In this document: piece after piece, positions 36,484-43,407 of the stretch
Layout of the letters: each line of letters opens with the position of its first letter
Numbering within the stretch: position 1 is the first letter of the stretch
Position numbers and translations under genes: made by a program
Assembly: GCA_021324265.1 (NCBI GenBank)
Contig: JAJPJK010000014.1
Coordinates: 1 to 54,788 of the forward strand
Source: Thermoproteota archaeon
GTDB lineage: Archaea; Thermoproteota; Thermoprotei; Gearchaeales; Gearchaeaceae
Length of the DNA stretch: 54,788 nucleotides
Direction: 5' to 3'
The notes under the pieces: model-generated
Databases searched by the model: none
Told to the model about the DNA's origin: nothing
The model's input: only the letters and a program-made list of their open reading frames with translations

Positions 36484-38199
36484 CTACTTAGCTGAAGAGG
36501 CCAGCACTGTAGAAATATCATCTATCTTTTGTTTGCATTTTTCAAATAGGTTATAATACAATGCCAATGATTCTTGAAGTGCCTGGCTTTTTTCTAATTT
36601 CTCCTTCTCTATTAGTTGCATCTTATCCTCAACCATTTTCCTAGTAGCAGGGGTCACTAATTGTTCATCAACTTTTTTCAACGACTCAATAAACGACATC
36701 CCCAAAGGAGTAGGTCTGAAAGTACCTTTCTTTTTTTCAGCATAGCCCCTATTCACGATAAGAGTAGGAAAGATTGCTCTAGTAGCATCAGTACCAATTC
36801 CGTTCTTCTCCATCAAATCAAGAAGATCAGATTCGCTCAGCCTTGGAGGAGGTTTTGTCTCTTCTTCTATGAGTTCGAGCTTTATGACTTTAATCCTTTC
36901 ATTTTGAACTAAGGTTGGAATCCTTTCTTCTTTAGGCTTGAAGTAATTGAATAAGGAATAAAAACCCATTTCTCTAATGAACTTTCCTTCTGAATGAAAA
37001 ATCAAATCACCGAGAAGGATGCTCGCCTTTTGATAAGTTAAAACGGCATCTTTCATAAATGCATTTGCAACATAACGCTTGGCTATGTAATCCCAGATAT
37101 ATTTACTAACATCCTTTGCGAAATATGGCGATATTGGATAGATAGGCGGATGTGCCCCATCATCGAGATCACCGTTTCTAGGATTCGCATAACTTGAAAA
37201 GTCTATGTTTTGCAATAAACCGCTCTTTTGCACAGCTCTAAGCGGTGATAGGAAATCGAAACCTTGCCTGTACCTATTGGTATCAGTTCTAGGATATGAT
37301 ATATAACCTTCTGAATAGAGCTTCTCCATGATTGAAAGAATTTTTGAAGCAGAAAGCTTAGTTAGCTTGGTCAAATCTTTGAGTGCATCGTCTGTTCTAA
37401 GAGGGAGGGGCCGCCTTACTTCTTTGGACTCCTCATGATACTCTTTAACTATTGCATTGTCGAGCTTTTTTAGATCCTCATATTTCTTCATTGCCTTTTG
37501 TTTGTCATCGAAGTGCTCACTTAGTGCTTTGAACTTAATGCCATTTTTTTCAAGCGTAAGCTTAAAGTACCAATACTTTGTAGGTTTGAAATTCTGGATT
37601 TCTTTTTCCCTTTCAACGATGAAATAAAGCGTGCAAGTTTGGCATGACCCCCAACTTATGAGACCTTTGTATCCTTTTCTACTTGACCCAAGAGTTAAAA
37701 GTCTAGTAAATGAAGCGCCAGTTATGAGATCGAAGTCCCTTCTGAATGTCGCTTTATCTACCCATCTCCAATTGAGATCGTTTTCAAGCCTGCTCCATGC
37801 TTTTTGAAGTTCGACTCTGCTAGTCGAATTGAATCGCATCCTATAATATTTGGCGTAGACCCCACGAATTGAACGGTAGATAGATAAAATCTCATATCCT
37901 ATCAACTCGCCTTCATGATCATTATCTGTAGCGATAACAAGTTCGCCAGGGTAATTCTTAAATACCTTTACTAAGTTTGCATATGCCGCCCTATCTTTTA
38001 TGACTGTGACTACTTTATTCACTTTGAATATTTCGGCAGGATCACTTCTACTCCAATTCTTAAAACTCAATGGTAAATCAGCTTCAAATACGTGTCCTCT
38101 TACACTTGTAACAATTGCACTCACCTTTATGCTTTGGAAGAAAGCCCTTAAAGAACGAGCTACACTTGCTTTTTCTGCCACAACAATGTATTGAGTCAT
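36484..38199 (-). CDS. Type IA DNA topoisomerase, short form
   Basis: A 571-residue topoisomerase. The N-terminal TOPRIM domain has VVAEKASVARSLRAF and ATDNDHEGELIGYEI (acidic DxD-E set). The active-site tyrosine is in GYISYPRTDTNRY, and the C-terminal part of the core contains LMEKNGIGTDATRA and NRGYAEKKKGTFRPTPLG. It stops soon after the core and has no C-terminal zinc ribbons, so it is shorter than bacterial TopA and most archaeal Topo III-like proteins. It is the last gene of a leftward series that begins with purH and overlaps the upstream gene by four bases. Confidence 0.92.
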   Translation of the reverse strand: MTQYIVVAEKASVARSLRAFFQSIKVSAIVTSVRGHVFEADLPLSFKNWSRSDPAEIFKVNKVVTVIKDRAAYANLVKVFKNYPGELVIATDNDHEGELIGYEILSIYRSIRGVYAKYYRMRFNSTSRVELQKAWSRLENDLNWRWVDKATFRRDFDLITGASFTRLLTLGSSRKGYKGLISWGSCQTCTLYFIVEREKEIQNFKPTKYWYFKLTLEKNGIKFKALSEHFDDKQKAMKKYEDLKKLDNAIVKEYHEESKEVRRPLPLRTDDALKDLTKLTKLSASKILSIMEKLYSEGYISYPRTDTNRYRQGFDFLSPLRAVQKSGLLQNIDFSSYANPRNGDLDDGAHPPIYPISPYFAKDVSKYIWDYIAKRYVANAFMKDAVLTYQKASILLGDLIFHSEGKFIREMGFYSLFNYFKPKEERIPTLVQNERIKVIKLELIEEETKPPPRLSESDLLDLMEKNGIGTDATRAIFPTLIVNRGYAEKKKGTFRPTPLGMSFIESLKKVDEQLVTPATRKMVEDKMQLIEKEKLEKSQALQESLALYYNLFEKCKQKIDDISTVLASSAK

Positions 38200-39152
38200 T
38201 TTTTAAGGCTTCTCAATACTTTATTTATGCAGCCATATCTTGGACTGAAATAACTGGTAAAGATCAAGTTAGCAATTGAGAACACAATTAGTATTAGTCC
38301 GATTAGACTAGATGAGACAAAATATAGGAATATTGAAGGAATAAAAGGTGTCAACATGCTAGCCAAAGGCCCTGCTAGGAACATTAATGCATATCTTTCT
38401 TTTGTTGCCTTGGTATTTTCCCTATCTATTTTGATACCGAAGGTAAAGGCGAGCATCCTTATCCTCTCCGGTATCCAAGAAATCAAATAGAGATTAGAAA
38501 GACCTAGATAATAGTATTTGAATCTAATACCTAAAGCACGCCCTAATAAAAAATGTGCCAGATCATGTGTAGAATACCACAATAAGATCCAAGATACAAG
38601 TCCTATGAGAAAATCTATAACAGGATTCCCTGTTATGAAAAGTAGCAAAATAATAGCGAATAAAGTTAAAAAAGAAAGTAGCAAGGTGCCTTTATTAACC
38701 TGCATTTTAAATGGGTCTTTGAAAGATGGCTCACCTATGTTATTGAAAAGCTTTAAGAGAGAACGGTTTCGATATTCTATGATCTCTTCAACGTATTTTC
38801 TAGCAAACCTATCGCCTAAACCATCAAGAACAGTTTCGAATTCGATTTCGTCTTCGATTACAATATCTTCATTTACCTCCTTGAATCTATGGTAATTCCT
38901 CCAACTTTTAACGAAAGGGCCCTTCAGTTCATCGACAATTTCCTCATGTTCCTTAATGCCTATTATTTTCAAAGTAAAATTCATACGTTGACCAAATAGC
39001 AAGAGTTTAACTTTGTAATCGCCATTATGTTTTTTAATCTCAGGTTTCAGATCTGAAGGATAAACCTTGACTATATTATTGGGGTCAAGAAAAAAATTGA
39101 ATATATCTTTCTTCTTTACTCCTTTAATCCTTACTTCCTTCCTTATCAACAT
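38196..39152 (-). CDS. Fusion of an SRPBCC (START-like) domain and an M50-like membrane domain with HDxxH
   Basis: A 318-residue protein. Residues 1-145 look like a START/SRPBCC lipid-binding fold (EVRIKGVKKKDIFNFFLDPNNIVKVYPSDLK, later VIEDEIEFETVLDGLGDRFARKYVEE...FRNRSLLKL-type helix). Residues 157-318 are hydrophobic with about six membrane segments. The sequence HDLAHFLLGRALGIRF (196-211) parallels the HExxH helix of site-2 proteases (HELGHxxxARxLGIRV), with Asp197 instead of the catalytic Glu, and LAGPLASMLTPF resembles the M50 AGPlaN segment. No NPDG-type third ligand is found, so activity is doubtful. It overlaps the Rieske gene by 29 bases and the topoisomerase gene by four. The family calls are by eye. 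Confidence 0.62.
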   Translation of the reverse strand: MLIRKEVRIKGVKKKDIFNFFLDPNNIVKVYPSDLKPEIKKHNGDYKVKLLLFGQRMNFTLKIIGIKEHEEIVDELKGPFVKSWRNYHRFKEVNEDIVIEDEIEFETVLDGLGDRFARKYVEEIIEYRNRSLLKLFNNIGEPSFKDPFKMQVNKGTLLLSFLTLFAIILLLFITGNPVIDFLIGLVSWILLWYSTHDLAHFLLGRALGIRFKYYYLGLSNLYLISWIPERIRMLAFTFGIKIDRENTKATKERYALMFLAGPLASMLTPFIPSIFLYFVSSSLIGLILIVFSIANLIFTSYFSPRYGCINKVLRSLKK

Positions 39153-39468
39153 CAGCCTTCCTTTTTACATAAAGATATCCGTTTATTACCTTAACTTCAT
39201 AAATTGGTTCATCCTCAAGAGGTTCTACGAATTCGGCTTTTCCGGTCTTCAAATCCCATATAGAACCATGACCTGCACATTTTATCTTTGTATCTATAAG
39301 CTCCCCCTCAGAGAGATCCCATTCTTCATGCTTGCAATAGGCATATATGCCATAGAATTGACCATTGACATTTGCTATGACTATTTCTTCTCCATCAACT
39401 TCGGTCTTAACAAGCTGATGCTCCTTAACATCACTTGCCTTGAGATTAGTTTTCTTAAAACCCTCCAT
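39124..39468 (-). CDS. Rieske [2Fe-2S] ferredoxin
   Basis: A 114-residue soluble Rieske protein. The ligand pairs are CKH (Cys45, His47) and CAGH (Cys64, His67), the latter followed by GSIWDLKTGKA as in ferredoxin components of dioxygenases and nitrite reductases. The linker between the pairs has the expected length of 16 residues. No signal peptide or membrane anchor is present, which excludes the respiratory type. It lies 10 bases after folP and overlaps the SRPBCC/M50-like gene, an unusual setting. Its redox partner is not encoded nearby. Confidence 0.9.
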   Translation of the reverse strand: MEGFKKTNLKASDVKEHQLVKTEVDGEEIVIANVNGQFYGIYAYCKHEEWDLSEGELIDTKIKCAGHGSIWDLKTGKAEFVEPLEDEPIYEVKVINGYLYVKRKADVDKEGSKD

Positions 39469-39478
39469 AACTCTACTT

Positions 39479-40573
39479 CTATTTCAATGTATATAATTTA
39501 TTCCTGAAAAAAGAACTAAGTTTGGCAACTCTAACAGACTCCTTAATATCATGTACTCTTGCTATGTTAGCTCCGTTGATAACCGCTAATACAAGCGCAG
39601 CTAGAGAAGCTTCCAATCTTTCCTCAACAGGGAGATCGAGTATTTTGCCAAGGAAGGACTTTCTGGAAATCCCTACAAGTATTGGAAGTCCGAAGATTTT
39701 CAATTCTTTAAGCCTAAGGATGAGCTCTACATTCTGTTCAACCGTTTTCCCAAAACCTATTCCTGGATCAATAATGATTTTGCTTTCTTTAATGCCAATT
39801 TGCTTAGCATAATCAATTCTCACATACAAAGATCTTAAAACATCTATCACAACATCTTGATAATGAATGTCTTTTTGCATGATTCTTGGATTTCCTCTCA
39901 AATGCATGAGCACAATTGGAATATCATACTTTCTTGCAATCTCTGCCATCCTTAAATCACCAACGAGGCCAGTAACGTCGTTAATTAAATCAGCACCAAG
40001 TGCAATGCATTCCTCAGCGACTCTACTCTTATAAGTATCCACGGATATGGGTATGTCGAACTCTTTCTTTGCATACTCTACTAAAGGCAAGATACGCCTC
40101 AGCTCTTCTTCTTCAGAAATCCTTATCGAGCCTGGTCTTGTTGATTCGCCTCCTATATCAATCATATCTGCACCTTCTTCATAACATTCTTTAATACGCT
40201 GTTTCGCTTTTTCAAGATCAAAATACCTACCCCCGTCATAAAAGGAATCTGGTGTAATATTCACAATCCCCATGATGTAAGCTTGCTTGCTGAAATCGAA
40301 AATTCTGTTCCCAATCTTCATAGAGGTGGGAAATGAATCAAGATTATTGATTAACTTTTTCAAGTGAGAAATGAAACCATCTTCTTCGAGAGATCTAAGT
40401 GAATTTATATCAAATGTCTTTATCAATGCTTCATACTTTGAATCGCTGAGCTCGCTTACTTTGATTTGAGGAAAGATCTTCTTTAATTTTAGGACAGCAG
40501 CGTCGTCGATTTCTTCAAATATGACATCAAAATTGTTTTGAGATATTTTTATGAAAACTCTGCCAGAATTCAC
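39479..40573 (-). CDS. folP: Dihydropteroate synthase with N-terminal extension
   Basis: Joins the pterin pyrophosphate to p-aminobenzoate. The catalytic barrel occupies residues about 90-364: MGIVNITPDSFYDGG, DIGGESTRPGS, ISVDTYKSRVAEECI, LINDVTG, IVLMHLRGNP, IIDPGIGFGKT, PILVGISRKSF and the C-terminal NGANIARVHDIKE. All pterin and pABA loops are present. About 90 residues precede it (FIKISQNNFDVIFEEIDD...) without recognisable motif; similar extensions exist in some bacterial DHPS. The gene overlaps folC by four bases and precedes the Rieske gene. This supports true folate, rather than methanopterin, as one-carbon carrier. Confidence 0.93.
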   Translation of the reverse strand: MNSGRVFIKISQNNFDVIFEEIDDAAVLKLKKIFPQIKVSELSDSKYEALIKTFDINSLRSLEEDGFISHLKKLINNLDSFPTSMKIGNRIFDFSKQAYIMGIVNITPDSFYDGGRYFDLEKAKQRIKECYEEGADMIDIGGESTRPGSIRISEEEELRRILPLVEYAKKEFDIPISVDTYKSRVAEECIALGADLINDVTGLVGDLRMAEIARKYDIPIVLMHLRGNPRIMQKDIHYQDVVIDVLRSLYVRIDYAKQIGIKESKIIIDPGIGFGKTVEQNVELILRLKELKIFGLPILVGISRKSFLGKILDLPVEERLEASLAALVLAVINGANIARVHDIKESVRVAKLSSFFRNKLYTLK

Positions 40574-41907
40574 AGCGGATCGCTCACGCTTAGCTCATCT
40601 GGCATTTCATTTAAGAGGAATTCCCTAGCTTCTGCAACAGTAAATACAGAGCCGGTAACCAATATAGGACTGTTGAAATTCATATCGGCAAATTTAACAG
40701 CTTCCTTAACATCGTCAATAAGATAATAAGGAATCTTCAGATTCAATTCCTTAAGAGCCATTGCAAGTTGCTCTTTTTTGAAAGCTCTATTCATTACTTT
40801 ATGTTCAGTGAAGATGAATGTATTTGCAATATCAGATATATTCCTGATCATACTCTTACAGTCTTTATCGCTGGAAATACTAAGAATGACAACAAACTCT
40901 TGATTGAAATTATCCTTCAAAAATTCACATATTGCCTTCATTGCGAAAGGATCTTTGGCACAATCTAAAATGATCATGTTATTCCTCTTAACAATCTCCA
41001 ATCTGCCGTTTATCTTCGCTTCAGAAAGGGTTCTTCTAATGATTTTCTCTCTAAAGTCATAACCAAGCATATCTAAAAGCTCTATCATAGCTATAGCTAC
41101 TGAACAATTGCTGAACTGATGATAGCCTAAAAGACTGGTTTCGAGACCTTCAAAATCGTAAATCAGGCCATGATAGTTAAATACATTAGAAGATAGGTCA
41201 CTTTTGATTTTTTCGTATCTTATGTCAAAGCCTCGATCGCTGCCTACCCTAAGCAGAGTTGAACCCACTTTTTCACATTCCTCATGAACAACTTTTGCAG
41301 CATTTTCACTTGTTTCTCCCAATACTAAATAAGCATCTTTCCTAGCTATTCCTGCCTTATTCCAAGCGATTTGCTCAACTGTATTCCCTAAAATATTTGT
41401 ATGCTCCAAATATACTGCAGTTATTGCAGAAATACATGGATTGAGAACATTAGTAGCATCATATCTTCCTCCTATGCCGACTTCATAAACGCACATGTCA
41501 CAGTTTTCTTCGAGGAAGTAAAGCATGGAAAGCGCAGTTGTGAATTCAAAGAAGGTTGGATGATAATCGGAATTCTCCATTTTCGAGTAGACATAGTTAG
41601 CTAAATCAAGCAACCTTTCCTTTTCTATTTCTTTAGAATTTACACAAATGCGCTCAGTATATCTGTGAAGATGGGGTTTCCAGAAGCGACCTACCTTATA
41701 ACCTTCATTCTCTAGTATTTTAGATACAAGATAAGTCACAGACCCTTTTCCTCCGCTTCCTGTTATTAGTACACAATTTATTCTTTCTTGGGGATTACCT
41801 ATTAACTTCAAGAGCCCTTTTATATTATCTACACCATAACTCATACCGAAACGTTTTAGATTGTAAAGCCAATTCAAAAATGCTGGATATGATTTGAAGA
41901 CTGCCAT
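40570..41907 (-). CDS. folC: Folylpolyglutamate synthase/dihydrofolate synthase
   Basis: A 445-residue Mur-ligase-type enzyme. The P-loop is ITGSGGKGSVTYLVSKIL (canonical TGTNGKGS), then KPHLHRYTERICVNSKEI, FEFTTALSMLYFLEENCDMCVYEVGIGGRYDATNVL and the AVYLEHTNILG and IAWNKAGI motifs that identify FolC; the C-terminal ligase domain has ILDCAKDPFAM, parallel to the DGAHNP motif but altered. It adds L-glutamate to dihydropteroate and/or to folate. The stop overlaps the folP start and its ATG is immediately after the purH stop, so purH-folC-folP are one unit. Confidence 0.92.
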   Translation of the reverse strand: MAVFKSYPAFLNWLYNLKRFGMSYGVDNIKGLLKLIGNPQERINCVLITGSGGKGSVTYLVSKILENEGYKVGRFWKPHLHRYTERICVNSKEIEKERLLDLANYVYSKMENSDYHPTFFEFTTALSMLYFLEENCDMCVYEVGIGGRYDATNVLNPCISAITAVYLEHTNILGNTVEQIAWNKAGIARKDAYLVLGETSENAAKVVHEECEKVGSTLLRVGSDRGFDIRYEKIKSDLSSNVFNYHGLIYDFEGLETSLLGYHQFSNCSVAIAMIELLDMLGYDFREKIIRRTLSEAKINGRLEIVKRNNMIILDCAKDPFAMKAICEFLKDNFNQEFVVILSISSDKDCKSMIRNISDIANTFIFTEHKVMNRAFKKEQLAMALKELNLKIPYYLIDDVKEAVKFADMNFNSPILVTGSVFTVAEAREFLLNEMPDELSVSDPL

Positions 41908-43407
41908 TTAATGTCTAAAAGATCTTACTCCAGTAAATATTAAAGATATATTATGTTCGTTAGCAGCACTAATGACTTCTTCATCTCTTATCGAACCTCC
42001 AGGTTCAATAATCGCACTGATGCCTTTACTGGCTGCTAGATCTATACTATCTCTAAACGGGAAAAAGCCGTCAGAAGCAAGTACAGCATTTCTCGCTTTT
42101 TCACCAGCGTTTTCTAGAGCGATTCTAACAGATGCGACTCTATTAGGCTGACCGCCACAAATGCCTAGTGATACTTCATTCTTCGCCACCACAATCGCAT
42201 TCGAAAAAACATGCTTCACTACTTTCCATGCAAATAACAAATCCTTCATTTCAGAATCATTAGGCTTTCTAGTAGAAACAACTTTGAGAGATGAAGGATC
42301 GATTTCAATTGTATCTGATTCTTGGAAAAGTATTCCATTTGCAATATCTCTAATATTGTAACTATACTTAATCTTGTTTCCCAAATTTGGTATTCTGACC
42401 AAACGAGTCTTCTTCCTCTTACTTAATATTTTCAAGGCTTCCTCATCAAAACCTTTTGCCACAATTACATCGAAGAAGTGTTGTGAAATAACTTCTGCCA
42501 AGTCTTTATCTACAAATGAACTTAGACCAACCACACCTCCATATGCAGAAATAGGATCTGCTTCATATGCCTTAATAAAAGCTTCTTTTATATTACTAGC
42601 CCTAGCTACGCCGCATGGATTCGTATGCTTTATGATGGCACATGTATTAGAACCCAAATCTGCGAGTAAAAGTATGATACGGTTTATGTCTAAGAAATTG
42701 TTGTAAGACAATTCATCTTTCAAAAGTTCATAATCGAAGGATTCATCTTCTACATTTTTGAAAATGTATGCTTTTTGATGCGGATTTTCACCATATTTAA
42801 GTTTCTTGCCCTCTTTTAAAAGAATAAATAAAGATAGCATTTGGGTAAAATTTTCATAAAGATATGAATATGCTTTAGCTTCATAATTCAATAAATATTC
42901 AAAACCTTTGAGCGCAAGTCTTTTTCTTGTCTCGATACTTATTTCTTTATTTTCACTTAGCTCTTTTAACACTTCAGCACAGCTTTCCTCATCTACAATA
43001 AGTGTGACATACTTGAAGTTCTTTATTGCACTGTTTATTAAAGTTCTCCCCCCTATATCTAGCGATTTCAAAAAGTCTTCGATGTTATTATACTTCGTTT
43101 CATAAAGATTTACAACTACATAATCGATTAATCCATAGCTTTCTATTTCTTTAAGTTCATCTTTATTTTCACGATCACATAAGATCATGGAATGAATTAC
43201 ATGATTTAGTGTCTTCACCTTATCGAAGAGTAATGAAGAGAAACCTGTTATCTTGCTAGTAGGGAGTACGCTGATTTTGTTATCTTTTAAGAAACGATAA
43301 GTACCCTCTGTAGCGAGAATGATAATTCCATTATTGTTGAGAAATCTGGCGAGCTTAATATAGCTACTTGCCTTATTTGTAAGAGAAAATAGGGCAAATC
43401 TTTGCAT
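41908..43407 (-). CDS. purH: Bifunctional AICAR transformylase/IMP cyclohydrolase
   Basis: Carries out the last two steps to IMP using 10-formyl-tetrahydrofolate. The 499-residue protein has the N-terminal MGS-like cyclohydrolase domain (1-190, LATEGTYRFLKDNKISV, DIGGRTLINSAIKNFKYVT) and the transformylase domain with KLKYGENPHQKAYIF, CAIIKHTNPCGVA, AYGGVVGLS, and the C-terminal LASDGFFPFRDSIDLAASKGISAIIEPGGSIRDEEVI-type block. All diagnostic motifs are present. Archaea more often use PurP and PurO, so a full PurH is notable. It is divergent from purC over a 69-base promoter spacer. Confidence 0.96.
   Translation of the reverse strand: MQRFALFSLTNKASSYIKLARFLNNNGIIILATEGTYRFLKDNKISVLPTSKITGFSSLLFDKVKTLNHVIHSMILCDRENKDELKEIESYGLIDYVVVNLYETKYNNIEDFLKSLDIGGRTLINSAIKNFKYVTLIVDEESCAEVLKELSENKEISIETRKRLALKGFEYLLNYEAKAYSYLYENFTQMLSLFILLKEGKKLKYGENPHQKAYIFKNVEDESFDYELLKDELSYNNFLDINRIILLLADLGSNTCAIIKHTNPCGVARASNIKEAFIKAYEADPISAYGGVVGLSSFVDKDLAEVISQHFFDVIVAKGFDEEALKILSKRKKTRLVRIPNLGNKIKYSYNIRDIANGILFQESDTIEIDPSSLKVVSTRKPNDSEMKDLLFAWKVVKHVFSNAIVVAKNEVSLGICGGQPNRVASVRIALENAGEKARNAVLASDGFFPFRDSIDLAASKGISAIIEPGGSIRDEEVISAANEHNISLIFTGVRSFRH

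Follow-up and report, generated by a model that had tools for sequence, protein, structure and literature searches.

An archaeal fusion of an SRPBCC domain with a site-2-protease-like membrane core that lacks the catalytic glutamate

Described relatives and the fusion gene

SRPBCC proteins possess a cavity fold for hydrophobic ligands. In Sulfolobus, CoxG-like proteins are membrane-associated and anchor the G3PDH (PMC11962113). The metal ligands of the site-2 protease (S2P) SpoIVFB are H43, H47 and D137, E44 is catalytic and the exchange E44Q abolishes activity; the reentrant beta hairpin of S2P has been described in the same work (PMC11486902). According to a description from 2022, no pseudoenzyme other than EGY3 is homologous to the plant S2P proteases (PMC9355673). 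A protein joining an SRPBCC domain to an S2P-like core was not found described in the open literature searched, and the conserved SRPBCC–pseudo-S2P fusion presented here is apparently undescribed so far.

The window, i.e. the whole analysed stretch of 54,788 nucleotides from an archaeon of the Thermoproteota, contains this fusion gene as an open reading frame (ORF) of 318 amino acids (aa), just as a first-pass annotation made from the sequence had claimed. To judge from its orthologs across many families, the ORF is real far beyond chance. The genes around it are:

36484..38199, minus strand: type IA topoisomerase (PF01131), downstream of the fusion gene; context
38196..39152, minus strand: the whole SRPBCC and S2P-like fusion gene; 318 aa ORF with orthologs, AF2 pLDDT 91.4
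39124..39468, minus strand: Rieske ferredoxin (PF00355, E 6.2e-13); context, not a conserved partner
39479..43407, minus strand: FolP (TIGR01496), FolC-like (PF08245/PF02875) and PurH (PF01808) genes, upstream; context

The ATG of the fusion gene lies inside the end of the Rieske ORF, with an overlap of 29 nt, and is closely preceded by AAAAAGGAAGG. Its stop codon overlaps the start of the topoisomerase ORF by 4 nt, so that the overlaps named by the annotation are present on both sides. The series on this strand runs from PurH over the FolC-like protein (a Mur ligase), FolP, the Rieske protein and the fusion protein to topoisomerase IA; PurC, PurM and PurF are encoded divergently from PurH, the FolC-like protein and FolP.

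Two domains in one chain

The AF2 model of the whole protein (pTM 0.82) shows a helix-grip pattern in the N-terminal half and, in the membrane half, an M50/S2P-like core of four helices whose TM2 and TM3 are separated by a beta hairpin (AF2/DSSP). The elements, all encoded on the minus strand, are:

38733..39152, minus strand: residues 1-140, SRPBCC (START-like, CoxG-like) soluble domain; Foldseek against the PDB, PF10604/PF03364 in homologs
38640..38699, minus strand: residues 152-171, TM1; AF2/DSSP
38535..38624, minus strand: residues 177-206, TM2 with HDLAH; AF2/DSSP, PF02163 match
38553..38567, minus strand: residues 196-200, HDLAH motif; H196 and H200 putative metal ligands, D197 at the position of the catalytic Glu
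38427..38522, minus strand: residues 211-218 and 236-242, beta strands between TM2 and TM3; resemble the S2P reentrant hairpin; AF2/DSSP
38352..38402, minus strand: residues 251-267, TM3 with AGPLAS; AF2/DSSP, PF02163 match
38235..38306, minus strand: residues 283-306, TM4; AF2/DSSP
38229..38234, minus strand: G307-C308, putative third metal ligand where the helix breaks; conservation in 48 intact homologs, AF2 break at 307

The soluble half had been called START-like, and this assignment holds at the level of the fold. In a Foldseek search of the N-terminal half against the PDB, the top 50 matches are exclusively SRPBCC-type folds (E from 6.6e-6), headed by the COXG-family protein APE2225 (2ns9, E 6.6e-6). 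The same protein is the best sequence-profile match, at a non-significant E of 0.079. A Pfam search with the window protein alone gave no SRPBCC-clan match in this half; in the homologs PF10604 was found in 21 of 30 (best E 2.5e-8, with L009 and L032 exceeding the cut-off) and PF03364 in 11 of 30. PF06240 (COXG) was detected in a single member of the 30 (E 0.15), and the START family proper is absent from the matches listed for this half. On the predicted fold, the N-terminal half is thus best named SRPBCC/CoxG-like rather than START proper. The putative role of a lipid sensor, proposed for the fusion from the beginning, is plausible.

The C-terminal half, modelled alone, reaches a pLDDT of 95.4 (AF2). 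After TM4 the helix breaks at G307 and is followed by a basic helix (308-317). The side that carries the SRPBCC domain, the hairpin and the C-terminus also carries the positive charges, and because of this charge distribution the SRPBCC domain, the hairpin, the metal site and the C-terminus are predicted to be cytosolic.

The M50-like nature claimed for this half finds support of moderate strength. PF02163 was detected in 27 of the 30 members (best E 1.4e-7), with matches confined to the first half of the profile; the window protein scores 22.6 bits, below the cut-off of 27.2. The best credible PDB matches of the membrane half are SpoIVFB and two RseP structures, and the suggested comparison of the predicted structure with the S2P core gave a resemblance to SpoIVFB with a TM-score of 0.49 over 156 columns (probability 0.89, E 0.39). 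No match had an E-value < 0.001, and the structure ranked first (5iqj) was set aside for its rmsd of 15. Very unlikely is a membrane half not of S2P descent, in which HxxxH and AGPLAS would be convergent. This explanation can draw on the Foldseek E-value for SpoIVFB, on the weak hhalign results against archaeal M50 alignments (probability 28% with E 6e-4, and 1.7%) and on the divergent membrane-only members, which have no Pfam match; however, L009 passes the PF02163 cut-off with 29.2 bits in a match running from HDLAH to the AGP motif, and three of the five best fold matches are S2P structures. Kinship with the S2P proteases is therefore likely, not overwhelming, as it relies on modest scores of models and profiles.

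Active-site positions and distribution of the family

The HDxxH pair of the first-pass annotation is present as HDLAH, and a survey of homologs shows how firmly it is kept. No variation occurs among 48 intact homologs at H196, H200, S303 and G307. All 48 carry C or D at position 308, and at position 197 they have D, C, S, T or G but never E (0/48). The loss of the canonical catalytic Glu is thereby confirmed for the whole set. The accompanying statement that the third metal ligand is absent is probably wrong: from its place at the break after TM4 and its conservation, C308 appears equivalent to D137 of SpoIVFB. Since H196, H200 and G307 are invariant, 308 is always C or D and 197 is never E, the ligand positions are kept while the position of the general base drifts. 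The fusion protein thus probably still binds a metal, and the simplest reading of these patterns is that metal binding was kept and the general base lost or replaced.

The combination HD and GC is found in 26 of 28 fusions; the membrane-only forms mostly show HC and GD or HD and GD. The fixation of D197 in these 26 fusions hints at a chemical function and is compatible with catalysis. An active intramembrane metalloprotease using Asp instead of Glu and gated by a lipid bound to the SRPBCC domain would agree with this fixation and with the kept ligand positions. It is nevertheless decidedly unlikely: among the solo relatives position 197 is C, S or T, so the family is not acid-dependent there, and in the fusions the Asp ligand is replaced by Cys. 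The exchange of Asp and Cys between HD/GC fusions and many HC/GD solo forms was also considered as evidence of a contact between 197 and 308. It was rejected, because site 308 changes once on the tree and a test of independent pairs is powerless; the covariation rank of the pair is 145 of 13041.

A similar layout was noticed by eye in the DUF3267 putative zincin peptidases (PF11667). Archaeal members from the class of the window (L086-L095) combine HExxH with a Gly-Asp motif in the final helix of the core. Kinship with them was discarded at an hhalign probability of 2.5%, and none of 30 members of the present family matched PF11667.

The same fusion recurs, by homology, across several deep archaeal lineages, and the question of its conservation elsewhere is answered by about 28 homologs from other archaea (roughly 30-40% identity) with the SRPBCC domain and the S2P-like core. 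The carriers are Caldarchaeum, Calditenuaceae, Pelearchaeum, Nitrosocaldus and groundwater Thaumarchaeota/Nitrososphaeria bins; most belong to Caldarchaeum/Calditenuaceae, to Nitrosocaldus or to basal archaea resembling Nitrososphaeria. Homologs of the membrane domain were found in 26 of 44 genomes in the class of G076, 16 of 300 in that of G359 and 8 of 257 in that of G395; in the window's own class (81 genomes) the window protein is the only intact member. Membrane-only members have a length of ~180 aa. On the tree the fused rows cluster tightly within the membrane-only forms (3 changes compared to 17.5 after shuffling), and the fusion is, on this phylogeny, old and nested among relatives that also lack the Glu. 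The branch of the window protein is long and falls outside the other HD/GC members (95/81), which led to the rejection of recent horizontal transfer or contamination; an old horizontal transfer of the gene may have occurred.

Divergent paralogs of ~240 aa exist in the window's own genome (L115, G000:C2:10629-11075) and in two family members (L113 in G002, L114 in G001). In L113 and L115 the second His is gone (HTPIQ, HPVIQ), as is the G-[C/D] site; HTLSH is retained in L114, where SD replaces G-[C/D].

Genomic context, proposed mechanism and known systems

The purine/folate and Rieske surroundings, to which the first-pass annotation had tied the gene, are real in the window but not general. 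Across 25 named loci the gene neighbourhood shows no conservation, and nearly all relatives have different neighbours. G001, a genome of the same family, possesses the purF-purM-purC/purH-folC-folP block with neither the Rieske gene nor the fusion gene nor the topoisomerase gene beside it. The operon was therefore rejected as functional context and is incidental to the fusion gene. In the window the Rieske, fusion and topoisomerase genes (36484-39468) lie downstream of folP; as this trio is not found there in G001, it seems to have been added to an old purine/folate cluster in a lineage-specific manner.

The Rieske gene adjoining the fusion gene in the window would fit a CoxG-like membrane anchor or scaffold, which recruits a soluble (redox) enzyme as the Sulfolobus proteins anchor G3PDH (PMC11962113) and uses the S2P core as a mere anchor. 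This is unlikely, because no recurrent Rieske gene, nor any other recurrent redox neighbour, was found beside the homologs, and the retention of H196, H200 and C/D308 across distant lineages is unexpected for a mere anchor.

Other neighbours recur locally. A small DUF6789-like membrane-protein gene overlaps the fusion gene in Nitrosocaldus, in G141 (an f39 genome of a Calditenuaceae-like family) and in G490 (an f62 genome), in two gene orders; elsewhere it is unlinked or absent, and the protein is a weak lead for a partner. Examples from two separate lineages, with both gene orders, are L034:10948-11418 and L156:7882-8322, and in both loci a pyrimidine-dimer glycosylase gene (PF03013) lies beside the pair. 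In three Nitrosocaldus loci, and in this lineage only, a PurE-like gene is located directly upstream. Groundwater Thaumarchaeota have a Snf7/ESCRT-III-like gene (PF03357, E 0.0022, below the cut-off) directly after the fusion gene or the membrane-only form (L031:4374-5006, L053:10609-11241).

The best explanation for the whole, with a probability of roughly 45%, is a metal-binding, non-canonical S2P scaffold combined with a cytosolic domain for a hydrophobic ligand, without canonical peptide cleavage. The cytosolic SRPBCC domain would take up an isoprenoid, a quinone or another lipid. The bound ligand would then be presented to, or signal through, a metal-bound pseudo-S2P core, a minimal four-helix unit with a metal site of His196, His200 and presumably Cys308 and no catalytic Glu, which would not perform the canonical cleavage of peptides.

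Rather unlikely is a lipid- or quinone-handling membrane metalloenzyme with a His2-Cys/Asp site, evolved from the S2P scaffold, which would modify an isoprenoid or quinone handed over by the fused cytosolic SRPBCC domain, with D197 as ligand or base, and would no longer cut peptides. The invariant ligand positions, the fixed D197 of the fusion clade and the location of the SRPBCC domain on the side of the predicted site agree with such an enzyme, as does a gene resembling geranylgeranyl reductase (by reading of the sequence) ~1-2 kb upstream in three Calditenuaceae loci. However, no metabolic neighbour is conserved and the membrane-only forms work without a fused carrier.

If the preferred reading of a non-proteolytic, metal-binding scaffold is true, then kept ligand positions, a Glu that never occurs and a fused domain of lipid-binding type would mean that the S2P scaffold was repurposed in Archaea, and hydrophobic-ligand binding and the S2P scaffold would be tied together in one chain. 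The family is experimentally tractable, with membrane-only members of this small size.

Among the known systems, the CoxG/SRPBCC proteins (APE2225, 2ns9; CoxG of M. smegmatis, 8uds) are the best fold matches of the N-terminal half and, where CoxG-like, are membrane-associated like the fusion protein. In contrast to the window protein the known CoxG proteins have no fused S2P-like core, and the similarity in sequence is not significant. The DUF3267 putative zincin peptidases share the order of an HExxH and a later Gly-Asp motif close to the core's end, but keep the Glu. EGY3 is likewise an S2P homolog predicted to be inactive (PMC9355673); this chloroplast protein of plants has no reported SRPBCC domain and is likened to the archaeal family by description only. 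With the M50/S2P proteins SpoIVFB, RseP and mjS2P the family shares HxxxH in TM2, the beta hairpin between TM2 and TM3, the AGP motif in TM3 and, presumably, the position of a putative third ligand where the helix breaks towards the end of TM4. It differs from them in the absence of the catalytic Glu from every intact homolog, in a putative third site of Cys or Asp without the LDG motif, in having only four TM helices and in the SRPBCC domain fused to them.
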